Shown piece after piece: positions 16,444 through 51,107 of a stretch of DNA of 64,000 nt. The translations under genes and the position numbers were made by a program. The notes under the pieces were generated by a model, which made no database searches, was not told the origin of the DNA, and saw only the letters and a list, made by a program, of their open reading frames with translations. Positions within the stretch are counted from its first letter, which is position 1, and each line of letters opens with the position of its first letter. The DNA is from Halothermothrix sp. (GTDB taxonomy: Bacteria; Bacillota; Halanaerobiia; DY22613). Location: assembly GCA_016841825.1 (NCBI GenBank), contig JAENYK010000007.1:174846-238845 (forward strand), in the 5' to 3' direction.

Positions 16444-17733
16444 ATGAAAATCCTTGGTATTGTTGCAGAATACAATCCATTTCACAATGGACATCATTAT
16501 CATTTGAGCAAATCCAAAACACAGATTCAAGCTGACGCTGTAATCTGCGTTCTTAGTAGTAGTTTTTTACAACGAGGTGAACCTGGAATAATTGATAAAT
16601 GGGAACGTGCCAGGATGGCTCTGGCTGGTGGAGCAGACCTGGTAATTGAACTGCCTACACCCTATGCTTTACGTAGTGCTGAGTTTTTTGCATACGGTGC
16701 TATATCTTTATTAGATGCTACTGGAATCGTGACACATCTATCCTTTGGCTCAGAATCAGGTGATCTTGATAAGTTACAACAGATTGCCAAAGTTTTAGCC
16801 AATGAGCCTCCAGAGTTCAGTAAATTAATCTTTACTCATTTAGACACTGGACTCTCTTATCCAGGTGCCCGTACTCAGGCTTTAATTGACTATATTCGCC
16901 AGTTCGATCCCAACTTTGACCTACCAGCGGACGAGATTGAAGAACTAACCTCTAATCCGAACAACATACTGGGTTTAGAATATTTGAAAGCTATTATTCG
17001 ATTGGAGAGCCGAATCACTCCGATTACTGTCTCCAGAATTGGCCCTGGATATCATGATACCCGAATGGAGAACAGAATTGCCAGTGCTACAGCTATTAGA
17101 GAGGCTCTCAAAGAAAGATTTATGCACAGTGAGCCTTTATTAGATGAAAAGATCAAAAGAATTATCCCAGAGAGTACGATTAATATTTTAGACTCAGTAT
17201 TCGCTGCTGGTAAAGGCCCGATCTTCATTGAAGATTTTTCTTCTCAAATTCTTACACTATTACGACGAGCCAAAGTTGAAGATATTGCTGAACTTTATGA
17301 TGTTAGAGGGGGATTGGAGAATAGAATTAAAGAAGCCGCAGATAATGCGGCTAATATTACTGAACTTATTGAACTGGTCAAAACCAAACGTTACACCTGG
17401 ACGAGAATTCAACGGACTATATTTCACTTTCTTTTAAATCTGACCAGTTTACAGTGCGAATATTTTGATCAACTTGGTGGCCCCCAATATATCCGAATTC
17501 TGGGTTTTACACCCCGGGGCCAGAGGATTCTCTCTCTGATGAAAGATACTGCCCGACTTCCAATTATCACTAGAGTGGCTAACCATTACCAGCGTTTTGA
17601 TACACCAGACCCCATTAATCAAATGCTAGAACTGGAATTACTATCCACATCTTTGTATTCCCTTGCCATGCCTGATCCCCAATACCGAATTGGGAATCGA
17701 GATCTTCTGGAAAAAGTAATTATTTGGAAATAA
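16444..17733 (+). CDS. tmcAL: tRNA(Met) cytidine acetate ligase (YlbM)
   Basis: TmcAL uses ATP and acetate to form N4-acetylcytidine at the wobble base of elongator tRNA-Met. The 429-residue protein starts MKILGIVAEYNPFHNGHHYHL, the HIGH-like nucleotidyltransferase motif of the family, and continues with SSSFLQRGEPGIIDKWERARMAL. GAGGAGG lies 6 nt before the ATG. YlbM neighbours YlbK, YlbL, YlbN and rpmF in Bacillus too; here pta-ackA lies between. Confidence 0.94.
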   Translation: MKILGIVAEYNPFHNGHHYHLSKSKTQIQADAVICVLSSSFLQRGEPGIIDKWERARMALAGGADLVIELPTPYALRSAEFFAYGAISLLDATGIVTHLSFGSESGDLDKLQQIAKVLANEPPEFSKLIFTHLDTGLSYPGARTQALIDYIRQFDPNFDLPADEIEELTSNPNNILGLEYLKAIIRLESRITPITVSRIGPGYHDTRMENRIASATAIREALKERFMHSEPLLDEKIKRIIPESTINILDSVFAAGKGPIFIEDFSSQILTLLRRAKVEDIAELYDVRGGLENRIKEAADNAANITELIELVKTKRYTWTRIQRTIFHFLLNLTSLQCEYFDQLGGPQYIRILGFTPRGQRILSLMKDTARLPIITRVANHYQRFDTPDPINQMLELELLSTSLYSLAMPDPQYRIGNRDLLEKVIIWK

Positions 17734-18290
17734 ATATCATTTGCCCTTTATCTACTGCTACCTCTACAGCCTTTTCTGTAACCAGATAACTAAAAGTCGC
17801 ATTAAGAGCAAGCTGTTAATGCTTAGGTTGAACGAACTTCAGGAGAAGATTGTACTTCCACGAAAGTAAACACAATTTAGTTATTTACAATCTCACCTTT
17901 AGAGGCTGAGAGACTCTCCTGATGAAATGTCGTTAATAAGCAGAAATTGTGGATAAAGTTAAAAATCGGGATACGGTCTCAGAGATTTGATATTTCTGAA
18001 TTAATCGAGCTACCACCTCTTCTCTGGTGAGTGGCTCTTTTATTATTATCGGGTGTAAAAACCAATCTGCCCCATCATGATCTGCATGGGCAGAAGTAAT
18101 AATTAACGTATCAGGTTTAATTCCAAACTCCTTAATGCTTTAGTCACTCTTTTGCTGTTGAAGCATCAATTCCCCGATCAATAGAATACCTTTACTGACA
18201 GTGTACAGGATTACTTTTGCTGGAAAGTAAAATAGAATAACCTGTCAGTCAGATTAATCAACATCTTTCCACCTTTTCAAATTTGATTCT
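17720..18290 (-). pseudogene. Decayed MBL-fold hydrolase, interrupted by repeat element A
   Basis: Reading the minus strand from about 18285, one frame gives KFEKVERC*LI*LTGYSILLSSK, then NPVHCQ*RYSIDRGIDASTAKE*. A second frame gives KEFGIKPDTLIITSAHADHDGADWF, the zinc-binding HxHxDH-like region of MBL-fold enzymes. It then jumps to EPLTREEVVARLIQKYQ and SETVSRFLTLSTISAY. Repeat element A follows, and after it the frame resumes with TFSYLVTEKAVEVAVDKGQMIFISK and a stop at 17720, overlapping the end of tmcAL. There are several stops, at least one frameshift and probably a central deletion, so no product is expected. Confidence 0.8.
17799..17940 (+). repeat. Dispersed structured repeat, copy A
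   Basis: First of four related intergenic elements. A 5' hairpin (GCATTAA/TTAATGC around CTG) is followed by TTGAACGA, an inner stem AGATTGT/ACAATCT, CAGGAG/CTCCTG, and the closing GAAATGTCGTTAA. It splits the reading frame of the MBL-fold pseudogene, which implies insertion. Confidence 0.75.
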
Positions 18291-18298
18291 CTCTAAAT

Positions 18299-19342
18299 TT
18301 AGGCAGCTTTTTTCTGAAGACCTAAGAGAAAATTCACCGCTTCTTCGATAGTTTTAACCTGGATAACCTGAAGTTTGGCAGCCGCTTTTACTGCTTCCTG
18401 ATAATTATCTGGTGGCGACAGAAAATATTCTGCCCCCTCTCTCTCAGCAGCTAACACTTTCTGGGTAACACCACTAATTGGTCCTACCAGACCGTCAAAA
18501 TCAATGGTTCCGGTTCCGGCAATTTTATAACCACGGGTCAAATCCTCTGGATGCAGTTGATTAATGATCTCCAGAGTAAACATGGTTCCTGCTGATGGAC
18601 CCAGAATATTCTCAGTATGAATCTCCACATCCACAGGAAAAACAACTTCCCGATGATGAGTAAAAATATAAATTCCAATAGAAGCTTTTTCTGGATTCTC
18701 CCCAGATTCGATAGTTTTTATCTTAAAATCCAGAACCTGATCATCACGTTTAACTTTTACATCAACGACATCACCAATCTGGTGATTCTGGATTAATTTA
18801 ACCGCTTCCGATGCCAAATCTACCTTTTGATCATTTATCTCGATGATCACATCTCCAGGTTTTAACACATCTCTGGCGTGACTGCTCTCCATTACTTCAG
18901 ATATCTCTGCACCTTCACCAGAGAACTGGGTCTCGTATCCCATCTGTCGTAAAGCCACGACTTTAGCGTAAATCTGGCTTTCTGACATCATCTCTTCCAT
19001 TAACTTCAAATATGTTTCCATATCCATATCCTGAGGTATCGTCTCTTCTTTTGGGGATAGCGAAAAACCTTTGGGACGGACTATCGATATGAGTAAAAGA
19101 TTAAATAAATTAGCCTGTTTAGACGAGACCGCTGTCAGATAAAAAGCCCCTGCTGCGTCTTTTTCCCCTTTCTCAACCGAGATAATCTCGCTCAAAGGCA
19201 AAGCCACACCTGGAGCTGTAATATAAAAATCCACTTTTATGTAATTAGCTGCTACCAACAGTATTGTGATAACAGCAACGATCATTAAAAAACGGTTTAA
19301 TCTTTCTTCAGAAAAGAACCTCTTCCTACTCAACTTAACCAA
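18299..19342 (-). CDS. PDZ and Lon-like (S16) serine protease, SepM/YlbL family
   Basis: The 347-residue protein has an N-terminal membrane anchor (about 17-36), a PDZ domain (about 125-210, with LKPGDVIIEINDQKV) and a C-terminal S16 domain with the catalytic Ser in ILGPSAGTMFTLEII and the Lys in ISGVTQKVLAAEREGA. Relatives process extracellular or membrane peptides, such as SepM on competence pheromone in streptococci, and are called YlbL in Bacillus. The start overlaps the patatin stop by 8 nt. Confidence 0.92.
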   Translation of the reverse strand: MVKLSRKRFFSEERLNRFLMIVAVITILLVAANYIKVDFYITAPGVALPLSEIISVEKGEKDAAGAFYLTAVSSKQANLFNLLLISIVRPKGFSLSPKEETIPQDMDMETYLKLMEEMMSESQIYAKVVALRQMGYETQFSGEGAEISEVMESSHARDVLKPGDVIIEINDQKVDLASEAVKLIQNHQIGDVVDVKVKRDDQVLDFKIKTIESGENPEKASIGIYIFTHHREVVFPVDVEIHTENILGPSAGTMFTLEIINQLHPEDLTRGYKIAGTGTIDFDGLVGPISGVTQKVLAAEREGAEYFLSPPDNYQEAVKAAAKLQVIQVKTIEEAVNFLLGLQKKAA

Positions 19343-25599: not shown

Positions 25600-25720
25600 G
25601 TATAATATAGGCTAAGAATCGGTAGCTGTTTATACTTGGTTTAACGACTTAAGAAGGGACTTGTGCTGCACTCTCCACCGATGGAGGCCAGAAGACTATC
25701 CTGCTGAAATATCGATATAA
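25600..25720 (+). repeat. Dispersed structured repeat, copy B
   Basis: Second copy, in the ATPase leader between the riboswitch terminator and the start codon. The 5' hairpin is GTATAA/TTATAC. It then shows TTTAACGACTT, GGGACTTGT, a CTCC/GGAG stem, and ends CTGAAATATCGATA. It lacks the central 20-30 nt of copies A and C. Confidence 0.65.
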
Positions 25721-29403: not shown

Positions 29404-29550
29404 CTGGTCATCTCCTTATGATGTTTTTTGATTACGAACAAAATAAATCATAATAACAGATCATTTTCGTAAGTCAGATTTTATCAATATTTCTATTCGT
29501 CAAATTATTCTTTTCACCTGCATAAGTTATGCACTCTCGGTTACCACTCC

Positions 29551-29684
29551 ATTAAAGGCGCTGTTAACGCCTGGCTTAACGACTTTAGATGGGGATTTGT
29601 ACACCCACTGAAGTAAACACCATCTAGTTATTTATACTCCCACCTATAAAAGCCGGGAAACTTCCCTTCGGAAATGTCGATAAA
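29551..29684 (+). repeat. Dispersed structured repeat, copy C
   Basis: Third copy, in the 477-nt gap before the SpoIID-domain gene. The 5' hairpin is GGCG-CTGTTAA-CGCC. It continues with GGCTTAACGACTT, an inner AGATGG/CCATCT stem, GCCGGGAAACTTCCC and GGAAATGTCGATAA. It is closest to copy A in length and order. Confidence 0.72.
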
Positions 29685-34414: not shown

Positions 34415-34440
34415 GAACTGGTTATCAATTAAATTAAAAG

Positions 34441-34561
34441 CATCAACACTCAACTGTTAATGTTTGGCTTAACGATTTCAGAAAGGGATTTGTACTCCAC
34501 TGAGGTTGTTATGCTTCGTTATAGAGGCCGGGAAGTGTCATTCCTAAAATATCGTTAAAAG
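34441..34561 (+). repeat. Dispersed structured repeat, copy D
   Basis: Fourth copy, after the DUF1858 terminator. It overlaps the last bases of the convergent patatin gene, whose TAA lies in the element's terminal CGTTAA. The 5' hairpin is CATCAACA/TGTTAATG. The outer closing helix TTAACGAT/ATCGTTAA is perfect over 8 bp. GGATTTGTACTCCACTGAGG and AGAGGCCGGGAAG follow the family pattern. Confidence 0.7.
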
Positions 34562-43464: not shown

Positions 43465-43549
43465 ATCTGGTGGAATGTCGTATTCCCGGCATTGCTGCCG
43501 TTTTTTATTCTGGCAAAAGTTTTAATGGGGCTTGGAGAAGTTAATGCCA
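43465..43549 (+). pseudogene. Fragment of ylbJ (85 bp)
   Basis: These 85 bp match 49986-50070 inside intact ylbJ with 6 differences (about 93%) and no gaps. Translated in that frame they read WWNVVFPALLPFFILAKVLMG. Flanking bases do not match. The fragment lies on the left of the CRISPR arrays and the intact gene on the right. Confidence 0.88.
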
Positions 43550-44182: not shown

Positions 44183-44279
44183 TTTACTCACCTCTCTTTA
44201 GGGTCATAGTTTATCTATTCTCTGTCTAAAACGATTTTCCTTCTGGATTGCTGGAAGGATATTATAGGTGGACGACATC

Positions 44280-46300
44280 ATTTCAATTATGTGCCCGTGT
44301 GGGGTGCGACCTAAGATAGACTGGATAAAGGGGGAAGTAACCCATATTTCAATCCACGCACCCGCATGGGGTGCGACTCAATCTTAGTTCTACTAATGAG
44401 CCAACTCAGAATTTCAATCCGCGCACCCGCATGGGGTGCGACCCCTGCTCCTGCGTTGTGGTGCAATTTGCACAACGATTTCAATCCACGCACCCGCATG
44501 GGGTGCGACCTGGTGACTTAACAAATATGTGTGTTAGCCCAGAAGATTTCAATCCACGCACCCGCATGGGGTGCGACCTTCATGAGGAGGCAAAACAAGT
44601 GAGTGGCATAAAATTTCAATCCACGCACCCGCATGGGGTGCGACAAGACAATGTTCGCTAATTCCGAAATCTATGAAATTTCAATCCACGCACCCGCATG
44701 GGGTGCGACAGTCACAGTTACAAAGTCTTAGGTGATGACTAATATTTCAATCCACGCACCCGCATGGGGTGCGACGAGGCGACCACGGATAAGAAGTGTA
44801 TCGTAGTATTTATTTCAATCCACGCACCCGCATGGGGTGCGACAAAGACTTAATATCTATAGGTTCAAAACGTCGTGTATTTCAATCCACGCACCCGCAT
44901 GGGGTGCGACTCTAGCATTATGTTCTTAAGGACTGCGATCAATAATTTCAATCCACGCACCCGCATGGGGTGCGACTGTATATCTGACATAGTTGATAGC
45001 CTTGATGATATTTCAATCCACGCACCCGCATGGGGTGCGACCATCTTTTGCTATCTCTAAAAGACTAACTTTAGATTTCAATCCACGCACCCGCATGGGG
45101 TGCGACTCAGTATGGCTCAGTATTTGGTCTTTGGTCATATTTCAATCCACGCACCCGCATGGGGTGCGACTTATAGTTTGCTTTTTCTCCTTTTAACATA
45201 GATGATTTCAATCCACGCACCCGCATGGGGTGCGACACTCCTTTTTTGTATTTTTTAGAGAACTTTTTAGAATTTCAATCCACGCACCCGCATGGGGTGC
45301 GACAAAATTATCTATAGTAATATAACTTTGTATCAACATTTCAATCCACGCACCCGCATGGGGTGCGACAAAATTATCTATAGTAATATAACTTTGTATC
45401 AACATTTCAATCCACGCACCCGCATGGGGTGCGACGTTAATAACATTTCCTTAAGTTGATCTCGCCACAAATTTCAATCCACGCACCCGCATGGGGTGCG
45501 ACAGAGCTTATTATAAGATCATATCCTTTTAAGTTGAATTTCAATCCACGCACCCGCATGGGGTGCGACACAATTTCATGGTTGCTGAAATTAATGGCGA
45601 TTATATTTCAATCCACGCACCCGCATGGGGTGCGACTTCATGCTGTAACTCCATCCTGCACACCGCAATCTATTTCAATCCACGCACCCGCATGGGGTGC
45701 GACATAATTTTCTTCTTTTTCCTTCGCTTCTTCTTTTATTTCAATCCACGCACCCGCATGGGGTGCGACATTAGTGCAACACTAGAAAAGCTGAATTTGT
45801 CCATTTCAATCCACGCACCCGCATGGGGTGCGACACAAAATAAAAAGCGAAAGGGGTTTTGAAAATGTTATTTCAATCCACGCACCCGCATGGGGTGCGA
45901 CATTAGTCGTCAGTCAAATCATAGCTATACAAAATAAGATTTCAATCCACGCACCCGCATGGGGTGCGACTGGAAATGATATAGTCTATAGTTTCGGCAA
46001 AGATATTTCAATCCACGCACCCGCATGGGGTGCGACCTAAGATGACAAATACGGATGTAATTAACGCTCGATTTCAATCCACGCACCCGCATGGGGTGCG
46101 ACTCTTGTTTTTCAGGCTTTTGACTTTTTCCAAATGATTTCAATCCACGCACCCGCATGGGGTGCGACTAGATCCAAACAGATCATTCTCCAGATAAACA
46201 TAATTTCAATCCACGCACCCGCATGGGGTGCGACGGGGAAGTATTAGGCAAACATTCAGAGGTATCTGATTTCAATCCACGCACCCGCATGGGGTGCGAC
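44280..46300 (-). CRISPR. CRISPR array 1, type I-C-like repeats, 30 intact repeats plus a degenerate one
   Basis: 32-bp repeats at 65-68-bp steps from 44346 to 46300, with 29 spacers of about 33-36 bp. On the minus strand the repeat starts GTCGCACCCC and ends GGATTGAAAT, the type I-C pattern; the core reads ATGCGGG. A degenerate repeat at 44280-44310 marks the leader-distal end. Its core is GTGTG-type like array 2. The second repeat has one A-to-G change. The leader is on the right, so transcription runs leftward. Two neighbouring spacers (45304-45337, 45370-45403) are identical. Confidence 0.97.
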
Positions 46301-46467
46301 AGTACCCAGAGAAAACGCAGTAATACCAACGTCTCATTTGACGGTTTCCGCGAACCTCAAAAATCTCCTACATTTTTCACCTAAAAATTTGGACTTAAAT
46401 CGTCTCAAGCTAGATGTGACAACGGGTGCGAACCTCCCGGGGTTTTCATGTGTGCTTCGGGTTCGCG
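46301..46467 (-). promoter_or_regulatory. Leader of CRISPR array 1
   Basis: These ~167 bp directly after the last repeat match the leader of array 2 with only about 5 substitutions. They contain a GCGAACC/GGTTCGC inverted repeat near 46430-46467, as in other type I-C leaders. Confidence 0.85.
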
Positions 46468-46470
46468 AAT

Positions 46471-46755
46471 TCATTCCGCTTTCTTATTCAACCTGATAAA
46501 ACTTCTTTCATATTGAGCAGTTTTGCCTACCACATAAGATAAATCGGTTTGAATGGTATCTAGACGTTCGTTCAGCTGCTCTTCCAGATGCTCTATCTGA
46601 TCACCGCGCAAGGAGTGTCCATCGAAGAGAGCGGTAATTTTAGTACCATAACTCTACTCCATGCGGAGTTGATTATTTTTTATGTCTTGAACCTCTTTTT
46701 CGATGCCACTCACTTTTTGAACCAGCAACTCCAGCATTTCTCGATCTGTCACCAT
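46471..46755 (-). pseudogene. Coiled-coil gene paralogue broken by an in-frame TAG
   Basis: From the ATG at 46755, well placed after GGAGGTG, the frame reads MVTDREMLELLVQKVSGIEK and stops at TAG (46654-46656). It continues in the same frame with SYGTKITALFDGH and ERLDTIQTDLSYVVGK to TGA at 46471. Aligned to 43901-44182, the TAG stands where the paralogue has Gln, so a CAG-to-TAG change explains it. The full length would be about 94 residues, matching the paralogue. Confidence 0.78.
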
Positions 46756-46814
46756 AGTCACCTCCATGTTTCTGCTTTTCGATCTACCCAAGACTTTTAT
46801 TGTAGCATTTTTCC

Positions 46815-48774
46815 ATTTCAATACACGCACCCGCGTGGGATGCAACCAACTATAGATATAGTATATCATTGGTTTGTTAAAATTTCAATCCACGCACCCG
46901 TGTGGGGTGCGACAGATTACGTCTCTACAGTTTGACGCTCTTTTTGTATTTCAATCCACGCACCCGTGTGGGGTACGACCAAATGTATAACAGATGTTAG
47001 ACACCAAAAAGGAGATTTCAATACACGCACCCGTGTGGGGTGCGACGGGAATAGGGAGTATGTTGTAGTTCACGAAGATGATATTTCAATCCACGCACCC
47101 GTGTGGGGTGCGACACAAATTTCCAATTTTATAACCTGGCAATTGCTTTATTTCAATCCACGCACCCGTGTGGGGTGCGACGCTTGCTGGTAAAGCTGGT
47201 ACTATAAGTGCTACTATTTCAATCCACGCACCCGTGTGGGGTGCGACTAAAATTATCTATAGTAATATAACTTTGTATCAACATTTCAATCCACGCACCC
47301 GTGTGGGGTGCGACGCACCCTGAGTCGACCTATATGCTCGTACATCTCAGATTTCAATCCACGCACCCGTGTGGGGTGCGACTGGCGCTGCCATCGGAAG
47401 AAAGGGAAGAGTTTCTGATTTCAATCCACGCACCCGTGTGGGGTGCGACGTTTGCTGCCTCTAATATATAAGATTGATAAAAAAATTTCAATCCACGCAC
47501 CCGTGTGGGGTGCGACGAGTGCCTCTAATTGTGCCTCCTTCCTCGTTAAGATTTCAATCCACGCACCCGTGTGGGGTGCGACTTCTATACCAGCCCCATT
47601 TGATCAGGTCATTAGGAATTTCAATCCACGCACCCGTGTGGGGTGCGACGAATATCTTCTAGTTTTAAAACTCGTTCTCTTCTATTTCAATCCACGCACC
47701 CGTGTGGGGTGCGACTTAATCATTATATAAATGGATATGAGATAAAAAGTATTTCAATCCACGCACCCGTGTGGGGTGCGACTTTTGCTTTTATTATATG
47801 TTGTTTCGGAGTAAGTATTTCAATCCACGCACCCGTGTGGGGTGCGACCTCTGTCTTCCTTCTCAACAAACATACTACCTGTATTTCAATCCACGCACCC
47901 GTGTGGGGTGCGACTCTTTCTTTAGTAAATCTTCTATTGCTTCATCAAATTTCAATCCACGCACCCGTGTGGGGTGCGACGCAGGGTCTATTTTTAATCG
48001 CCCAGTGCACCATCTATTTCAATCCACGCACCCGTGTGGGGTGCGACTGGGGCTGGATTTGAATACACAGAGGATATGGTTATTTCAATCCACGCACCCG
48101 TGTGGGGTGCGACCTTCAGCCAGCTTTTCCCTCTTGAATTTGTCAGATTTCAATCCACGCACCCGTGTGGGGTGCGACGCAATCCTGATATAAGCTGTTC
48201 CAGTTCTCTGATAATTTCAATCCACGCACCCGTGTGGGGTGCGACAGTTTGTATTGGAAACATCTAGCAATCTAAACGAATTTCAATCCACGCACCCGTG
48301 TGGGGTGCGACTCAAGAAATCGAGGTAGGGGAACTAATCCCCTAATTTCAATCCACGCACCCGTGTGGGGTGCGACACACGAACATAGGAGGCTTAAGGC
48401 TGAGACATGGAGATTTCAATCCACGCACCCGTGTGGGGTGCGACTGTAGCAATCACTTGGTAGATATAATCGGGCTAATTTCAATCCACGCACCCGTGTG
48501 GGGTGCGACTGGAGAGACAGCCACTATATGGCTACTCTTTGGAATTTCAATCCACGCACCCGTGTGGGGTGCGACGAGCCGAAGCGAAAGAACTATTATC
48601 GGTATCATCAATTTCAATCCACGCACCCGTGTGGGGTGCGACACAAACAATAGTAAAGTGTTTAAATTATCTGATAATTTCAATCCACGCACCCGTGTGG
48701 GGTGCGACCTTCGAATCCTTGCAATGTACCCAAAAGCCCGTTATTTCAATCCACGCACCCGTGTGGGGTGCGAC
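46815..48774 (-). CRISPR. CRISPR array 2, type I-C-like repeats, 29 intact repeats plus a degenerate one
   Basis: Repeats run from 46882 to 48774 with 28 spacers, and a degenerate distal repeat lies at 46815-46846. The repeat equals that of array 1 except for the loop (plus strand CCGTGTGG instead of CCGCATGG). Repeats 2 and 3 from the left carry single changes. The spacer at 47248-47282 matches the doubled spacer of array 1 with one extra T at its left end. The leader is on the right. No cas genes are in the window. Confidence 0.97.
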
Positions 48775-48941
48775 GGTACCCAGAGAAAACGCAGTAATAC
48801 CAACGTCTCATTTGACGGTTTCCGCGAACCTCAAAAATCTCCTACATTTTTCACCTAAAAATTTGGGCTTAAATCGTCTCAAGCTAGATGTAACAACGGG
48901 TGCGAACCTCCCGGGGTTTTTATGTGTGCTTCAGGTTCGCG
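48775..48941 (-). promoter_or_regulatory. Leader of CRISPR array 2
   Basis: Nearly identical to the array 1 leader and in the same position relative to its array, so both arrays should recruit the same adaptation machinery. Confidence 0.85.
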
Positions 48942-49865: not shown

Positions 49866-51107
49866 GTGGAGCAAAAATCTCTTCGCAGACAGTGGGTAAT
49901 TTTAGCTTTAATATCTGTATTTATAACAGTCTGTATGGTTATTTATTCAGAAGAATCTTTTGAGGCAGCTGTGAGCGGATTAAGAATCTGGTGGAACGTT
50001 GTATTCCCAGCATTGCTGCCGTTTTTTATTCTGGCAGAAGTTTTAATGGGGCTAGGAGTAGTTAATGCCATGGGAGCATTGTTGGAACCTCTTATGAGAC
50101 CGGTATTTAGAGTACCAGGAGTTGGAGCTTTTGCTTTAGCAATGGGTCTAGCGTCCGGTTACCCAATTGGTGCAAAGATTACTGGTAATTTGAGACGGAA
50201 AAAATTGTGTTCACGCATAGAGGCTGAGCGTCTTCTGTGTTTCACTAATACAGCTGATCCTCTCTTTCTGGTTGGAGCTGTTGCTGTCGGAATGTTTGGT
50301 AATGCTTCGCTAGGCTTTGCTCTGGCAGGAGCGCATTACACCTCCAGTATTGCTTTGGGGCTAATCATGCGCTTTCACGGAAGAAAAGAAGAAAGAAAAG
50401 GTGACATTATCGCAGAACCCACAAAACGAGGAAATATTGTTATTCGAGCATTAAACGCTTTATATGCTGCCCGCAAGGAAGATGGGCGCTCCTTCGGGCA
50501 ACTGTTGGGAGATAGTATCACTGGATCTGTGCAATCGTTATTATCAATTGGGGGATTTATTATAATATTTTCAGTAATCACGCAGATAATAACTTCTGTT
50601 GGAATTGTAACTATTTTGACAAAAATTATCATGTTCATTCTTGCTCCTTTTGGGGTTGCTGAATCCATGGTATTACCGATAATCGGTGGTATTTTTGAAA
50701 TCACTAATGGCTCCGATCTGGCAGCCAGAGCAATTGCCCCTCTCTTTCAACAAATTGCAATTTGTAGTGCAATTATCGCTTGGTCAGGTTTATCCGTCCA
50801 TGCGCAAGTGGCTTCAATGGTTAATGGTACTGATATAAGAGTTAAGCCCTATATATTCGCCCGGATACTTCATGCAATTCTGGCAGCGTTATGCACTTTC
50901 ATCTTTTTGAGTCCAACAGTTAGTGTTCTGATGCCAGTACATATGCCGCTTATCTTTAATGATTCTATTTATACTTTAGGGTTCTCCGCCAGATTCAATT
51001 TCATCTTAAATAATCTGCTATTACTTCTTGGAGTTATGATACTGTCTTCGTTGATAATAACTCTATTTCAGCGAATAAAAATCATCATCTATAGATATAA
51101 AGAATAG
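49866..51107 (+). CDS. ylbJ: Sporulation integral membrane protein YlbJ
   Basis: The 413-residue membrane protein has about eight hydrophobic segments and the nucleoside-recognition/Gate-type pattern FPALLPFFILAEVLMGLG, VPGVGAFALAMGLASGYPIGAKITGNL and FTNTADPLFLVGAVAVG. In Bacillus YlbJ is made under sigma-E and is needed for spore cortex and dipicolinic acid transport. It normally neighbours ylbK and ylbM but here lies 30 kb away, beside the CRISPR arrays. The start is GTG and the stop TAG. Confidence 0.93.
   Translation: MEQKSLRRQWVILALISVFITVCMVIYSEESFEAAVSGLRIWWNVVFPALLPFFILAEVLMGLGVVNAMGALLEPLMRPVFRVPGVGAFALAMGLASGYPIGAKITGNLRRKKLCSRIEAERLLCFTNTADPLFLVGAVAVGMFGNASLGFALAGAHYTSSIALGLIMRFHGRKEERKGDIIAEPTKRGNIVIRALNALYAARKEDGRSFGQLLGDSITGSVQSLLSIGGFIIIFSVITQIITSVGIVTILTKIIMFILAPFGVAESMVLPIIGGIFEITNGSDLAARAIAPLFQQIAICSAIIAWSGLSVHAQVASMVNGTDIRVKPYIFARILHAILAALCTFIFLSPTVSVLMPVHMPLIFNDSIYTLGFSARFNFILNNLLLLLGVMILSSLIITLFQRIKIIIYRYKE

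Follow-up and report, generated by a model that had tools for sequence, protein, structure and literature searches.

Between tmcAL and ylbL, a decayed gene for an MBL-fold protein lies on the minus strand, and its reading frame is interrupted by a noncoding sequence, here referred to as element A. Was this sequence inserted into a gene that was once continuous, and if so, what moves such elements? The original prediction held that the element splits the gene and that its noncoding family moves. The features of the window, that is, the whole 64,000-nt stretch of DNA analyzed here, are given below (G001 denotes the relative with the empty site).

16444-17733, plus strand: tmcAL
17720-17790, minus strand: C-terminal segment of the MBL-fold pseudogene following the element (SYLVTEKAVEVAVDKGQMIFISK, stop); G001 protein match and translation
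17791-17795, minus strand: right flank copy TTTTA (one substitution away from TTTAA); from the sequence, other copies having TTTAA at both ends
17796-17932, minus strand: element A core (CGAC...GCGAC), 137 nt; profile match 17793-17936, E 3.8e-34, ~85% identical to the copies' consensus
17799-17822, minus strand: right terminal hairpin GCATTAACAGCTTGCTCTTAATGC, set 3 nt in from the end of the core; consensus fold, 66 right ends genome-wide
17891-17913, minus strand: internal hairpin 1 (CTCTCA...TGAGA type); consensus fold, common to family B
17933-17936, minus strand: left target remnant TTAA (TTTAA minus a T); sequence compared with the G001 empty site
17937-18045, minus strand: MBL-fold pseudogene segment preceding the element (KEPLTREEVV...STISAY); match to the G001 protein
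18068-18262, minus strand: damaged N-terminal part of the pseudogene, with internal deletion and frameshifts; tblastn 18068-18235 corresponds to G001 residues 12-71
18299-19342, minus strand: ylbL
25624-25717, minus strand: fourth element A copy, decayed and truncated; E 1e-11
29550-29684, minus strand: second element A copy; E 2.7e-33
34440-34559, minus strand: third element A copy, decayed; E 1.6e-17

Elsewhere, the window holds a CRISPR array at 44279-48941 with about 60 repeats of ATTTCAATCCACGCACCCGCATGGGGTGCGAC, flanked on both sides by an 85-bp direct repeat that is 93% identical between its two copies (43465-43549 and 49986-50070).

Insertion of element A at a TTTAA site in the MBL-fold gene

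The MBL frame KEPLTREEVVARLIQKYQISETVSRFLTLSTISAY, which runs to ...STISAY, ends at 17937 and picks up at 17790 with SYLVTEKAVEVAVDKGQMIFISK and a stop; about 146 unrelated bases separate the two parts. By a protein search of 40 relatives we found an orthologue in G001, the sole other genome of the same family, which belongs to a different genus. The gene order there is ylbL - MBL - tmcAL, as in the window, and the protein is intact, with 302 aa, a Lactamase_B domain (PF00753) and the C-terminus ETVSQYFLTFSAVSAYLSYLESEEMLNIEVRDGQLIFISR. The orthologue aligns on both sides of the junction and its flanks are contiguous without the element. The DNA of G001 reads TCCGCTTA-TTTAA-GTTATCTTG (site sequence GCTTATTTAAGTTATCT; longer stretch TCCGCTTATTTAAGTTATCTTG), while that of the window reads TCTGCTTA-TTAA-core-TTTTA-GTTATCTGG. 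To turn TTTAA-core-TTTAA into the window sequence takes only the loss of a left-hand base and the change of a right-hand one, and since the G001 junction holds a single TTTAA, the pentamer at which other copies sit, element A entered at TTTAA. The base after the right TTTAA is G in the window copy (17790), as in the empty site.

The prediction that one frame had been interrupted therefore stands: the intact 302-aa protein matches the joined translation on both sides, and the empty site sought in a relative is present with its single TTTAA. The further claim that the family moves is borne out for the past, as the empty site shows past mobility and not present activity. The event was not a simple split. 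Frame, interruption and resumption are all seen, but the gene also carries a large deletion and frameshifts: about 150-170 residues are gone, with roughly G001 residues 72-240 (most of the MBL domain) lacking a counterpart, and the N-terminal part contains frameshifts and stops. The region of about 17940-18290 is MBL remnant and holds no element A sequence. Because of these other inactivating lesions, element A is only one candidate for what killed the gene, and it may have entered before or after the others arose.

Element A and the related family B

Element A is about 148 nt long when both TTTAA copies are counted, and at least 40 scored matches to it are present in its own genome (best other copy, E 2.6e-34). 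Left ends with at most 3 mismatches number 110 in this genome, against 4 for a reversed-pattern control, and right ends number 66 against 0. A profile search of 1.449 Mb of own-genome sequence, made up of stretches picked around copies and covering 94 of the 110 left ends, yielded 131 copies, both ends being present in 101; from this left-end coverage we estimate about 150 or more copies genome-wide. Well-bounded copies start with TTTAACGAC and end with GCGACTTTAA. The left pentamer is nearly fixed among 57 of them (T.96, T 1, T 1, A.89, A.88), TTTAA flanks nearly every well-kept copy on both sides, and a pyrimidine (T or C) follows the right TTTAA in 88% of well-bounded copies. None of the 131 copies in the 1.449 Mb lies within an ORF of at least 90 aa. 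We take element A to be a non-autonomous mobile DNA element without coding capacity.

The consensus fold (-54.8 kcal/mol) consists of a long outer stem over most of the element, internal hairpins and the right terminal hairpin, so that subterminal hairpins are predicted at both ends (right terminal and left-side hairpins). The ends themselves, CGACAT and GTCGCAT, match only partly and with an offset, and form no convincing terminal inverted repeats. Variants include solo right hairpins, internal deletions and truncations. Solo right-end hairpins with GACTTTAA-type ends stand beside unrelated sequence at C2:11995 (L180), C2:128884 (L181) and C40:13657 (L191) of the own genome. An autonomous element A, sought through unpaired left and right ends, did not emerge: every unpaired end came from a truncated or internally deleted copy or from a solo right hairpin. 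We also dropped an integron attC-like reading of TTTAAC...GTTAAAC, since the element runs past this box with a second hairpin and shows no cassettes.

Among all genomes searched, this high-copy noncoding family is confined to its own genome. BLAST found no element A in 60 relatives, phages and plasmids, a covariance model found none in 58 other genomes of the class, and the right-end pattern has no occurrence in GTDB r220 or IMG/VR. A 20-base left-end pattern occurs in six viral contigs by chance, the A profile finding nothing past those 20 bases.

A related family of about 115 nt, here called family B, occurs in the same genome, with 31 matches in the own-genome stretches (for example, L131 356-470) and 0 in the window, and has no orientation bias there (16 to 15). 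At least 116 GTDB stretches, most of them from Desulfosporosinus and relatives, carry its right end, and a profile search of those stretches gave 168 copies (GTDB loci L205-L320). Matches to the A profile occur at 21 of the B loci and span about A positions 22-116; the best, in other species, has E 4e-6. Of the 17 B copies whose left end is clear, 14 sit 3' of TTTAT; the family ends with GAACGAGTTCAC (terminal TTCAC; GAGTTCAC) and makes no target duplication. Its hairpins covary: in 16 representatives we counted 22 double changes, against 7.3 +/- 2.1 in shuffled data. The ORFs that end beside B elements belong to unrelated host genes, and none encodes TnpB. In a Desulfosporosinus MAG (L350, 1465-2500), a degenerate B-like element, preceded on the left by TTGAT, stands immediately after a REP-associated tyrosine transposase gene (NF047646, above cut-off); as B is so frequent and this adjacency was seen once, the link between B and the transposase is suggestive only. 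Calothrix plasmid AP018209.1 (L357 1955-2037) carries a 28-base exact match to the B hairpin 2 region, lying inside a similar hairpin pair, and related stretches are found on 14 cyanobacterial plasmid records. An Rfam search gave no match over element A or family B. Element A is in this way tied to a related family that is spread through Desulfosporosinus and relatives and absent from Rfam.

Candidate modes of movement

We consider it probable, at roughly 0.6, that element A is a non-autonomous hairpin element mobilized in trans by a Y1/HUH transposase. Its working form would be a single strand folded into hairpins. The transposase, an IS200/IS605 TnpA or a REP-associated relative, would cut this strand at TTTAA at each end, and the strand would be joined 3' of a TTTAA where DNA lies open as a single strand, chiefly on the lagging-strand template. 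The copy in the MBL gene, which lies between ylbL and tmcAL, would have entered its TTTAA in this way. We infer an HUH enzyme as the mover from the fixed left pentamer, the lack of matching inverted repeats, the subterminal hairpins and the kinship with family B. In support, a Sulfolobus islandicus IS605 element, whose guide-RNA scaffold ends in UUCAC, inserts at TTTAA and has the same pentamer as its TnpB motif (PMC11043419). IS200/IS605 elements are reported to show a lagging-strand bias (PMC5371812, PMC6006769), and the orientation of element A would fit these reports: 98 of 131 copies run along the local leading strand (98 vs 33, p = 1e-8), a bias that is confounded with gene direction, both flanking genes being on the lagging strand at only 5 loci, which split 2 to 3. 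The even split of family B in this genome counts against the reading.

No Y1/HUH enzyme with A-type ends was found in the own genome, where the only two Y1_Tnp fragments are part of an IS605 whose ends do not match those of A. This resident IS605 (C22:430777-431988; L103, L202) has an intact tnpB, a tnpA fragment and the right end GAGAGGTTCAA, unlike those of A and B, and was ruled out as the parent of element A on this difference. IS200/IS605 elements make no target duplication. A simple 5-bp target duplication would likewise give TTTAA on both sides of element A, which counts against a Y1/HUH enzyme; such a duplication looks the same as a right end encoded by the element.

The leading alternative, though we think it unlikely, is a conventional MITE whose DDE transposase would choose TTTAA as its target and duplicate the 5 bp. 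It would account for TTTAA on both sides of nearly all well-kept copies and for the one TTTAA of the empty site; the offset, non-matching ends (CGACAT vs GTCGCAT) speak against it, the long subterminal hairpins and the homology to the duplication-free family B fit an HUH enzyme better, and the searches for an autonomous partner bearing A ends turned up none. Less likely still is a bcr1-like element, moved by a process resembling site-specific recombination, as suggested for the TTTAT-bearing repeats of Bacillus cereus. Size and copy number are alike, the pentamers are one base apart (PMC6542083) and family B uses TTTAT itself, but the bcr1 mechanism is itself only a proposal and the likeness is one of description. 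This reading may simply be a different label for the same class.

A broader proposal, of about the same low probability, joins A and B in one wide Bacillota superfamily, perhaps also reaching cyanobacteria, of solo covarying hairpin elements. Their ancestry would lie in the guide-RNA end of TnpB transposons, and a Y1 transposase acting in trans would move or maintain them, perhaps aided by TnpB-type RNA guidance at TTTAA or TTTAT.

It is very improbable that element A is a functional structured RNA family, a regulator or small RNA under selection at each locus, rather than a transposon. The strong predicted folding of the consensus (-54.8 kcal/mol) and the intergenic position of copies oriented with genes would suit such a family. 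However, 78 divergent copies, for which RNAalifold gave no consensus structure and whose paired positions were therefore counted on the consensus fold, had no covariation (67 double changes vs 63.3 +/- 6.6 in shuffles) and 546 broken pairs (553 +/- 8.6 in shuffles). Their mean pairwise identity of 0.723 is near the star expectation of 0.707. As paired positions change independently, resident copies decay separately from a master form and the structure is not kept in place. Truncated and internally deleted copies are common as well, and the window copy sits in a formerly coding frame. We ruled out a maintained RNA gene on the absent covariation and the lack of an Rfam match. Hairpins that covary between species in B and resident copies that decay in A are expected if the structure serves movement and not the host, and this pattern makes the question of the mobilizing enzyme testable.

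That there was no insertion at all, the unrelated sequence being natural here in homologues or the flanks coming from different genes, could draw on the bad decay of the gene and the short segments on which the reading hangs, but is refuted by the syntenic G001 orthologue, aligned across the junction with TTTAA at the site. The empty site cleanly shows past mobility and gives the exact target.

Comparison with known systems

Among known systems, element A can be compared with five types. First, the PATEs of IS200/IS605 are likewise short and noncoding, with hairpins near the ends, a fixed left pentanucleotide and presumed trans mobilization by Y1; element A inserts 3' of the fixed pentanucleotide TTTAA, as PATEs do at theirs, judging by well-bounded copies and the empty site. 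One PATE-like element has been reported in Halanaerobium hydrogeniformans (PMC7290912). Element A differs in that no parent IS with matching ends was found, TTTAA stands on both sides, and there are about 150 or more copies versus one. As no parent IS or TnpA with A ends was found in the genome and TTTAA is two-sided, we say that element A resembles a PATE in its working but do not count it among the proven ones. Second, REP/RAYT (TnpA-REP) sequences are also high-copy, dispersed, intergenic hairpins. Element A is longer, with several hairpins and no GTAG-type foot seen, and no RAYT gene was detected in its genome; one family B example (L350) follows a REP-associated tyrosine transposase gene, and no copy of A was seen beside a gene of this kind. 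Third, the matching terminal inverted repeats of classical MITEs were not found in element A. Fourth, the right end and TnpB guide-RNA scaffold of the Sulfolobus islandicus IS605 (PMC11043419) share the TTTAA target with A and the terminal TTCAC with B; A and B have no tnpB attached, and the likeness is one of motifs. Fifth, bcr1-bcr3 of the Bacillus cereus group (PMC6542083) live in different hosts and were compared by description only, and on that description they resemble element A in size class, copy number, the TTTAT/TTTAA pentamer and restriction to one group.
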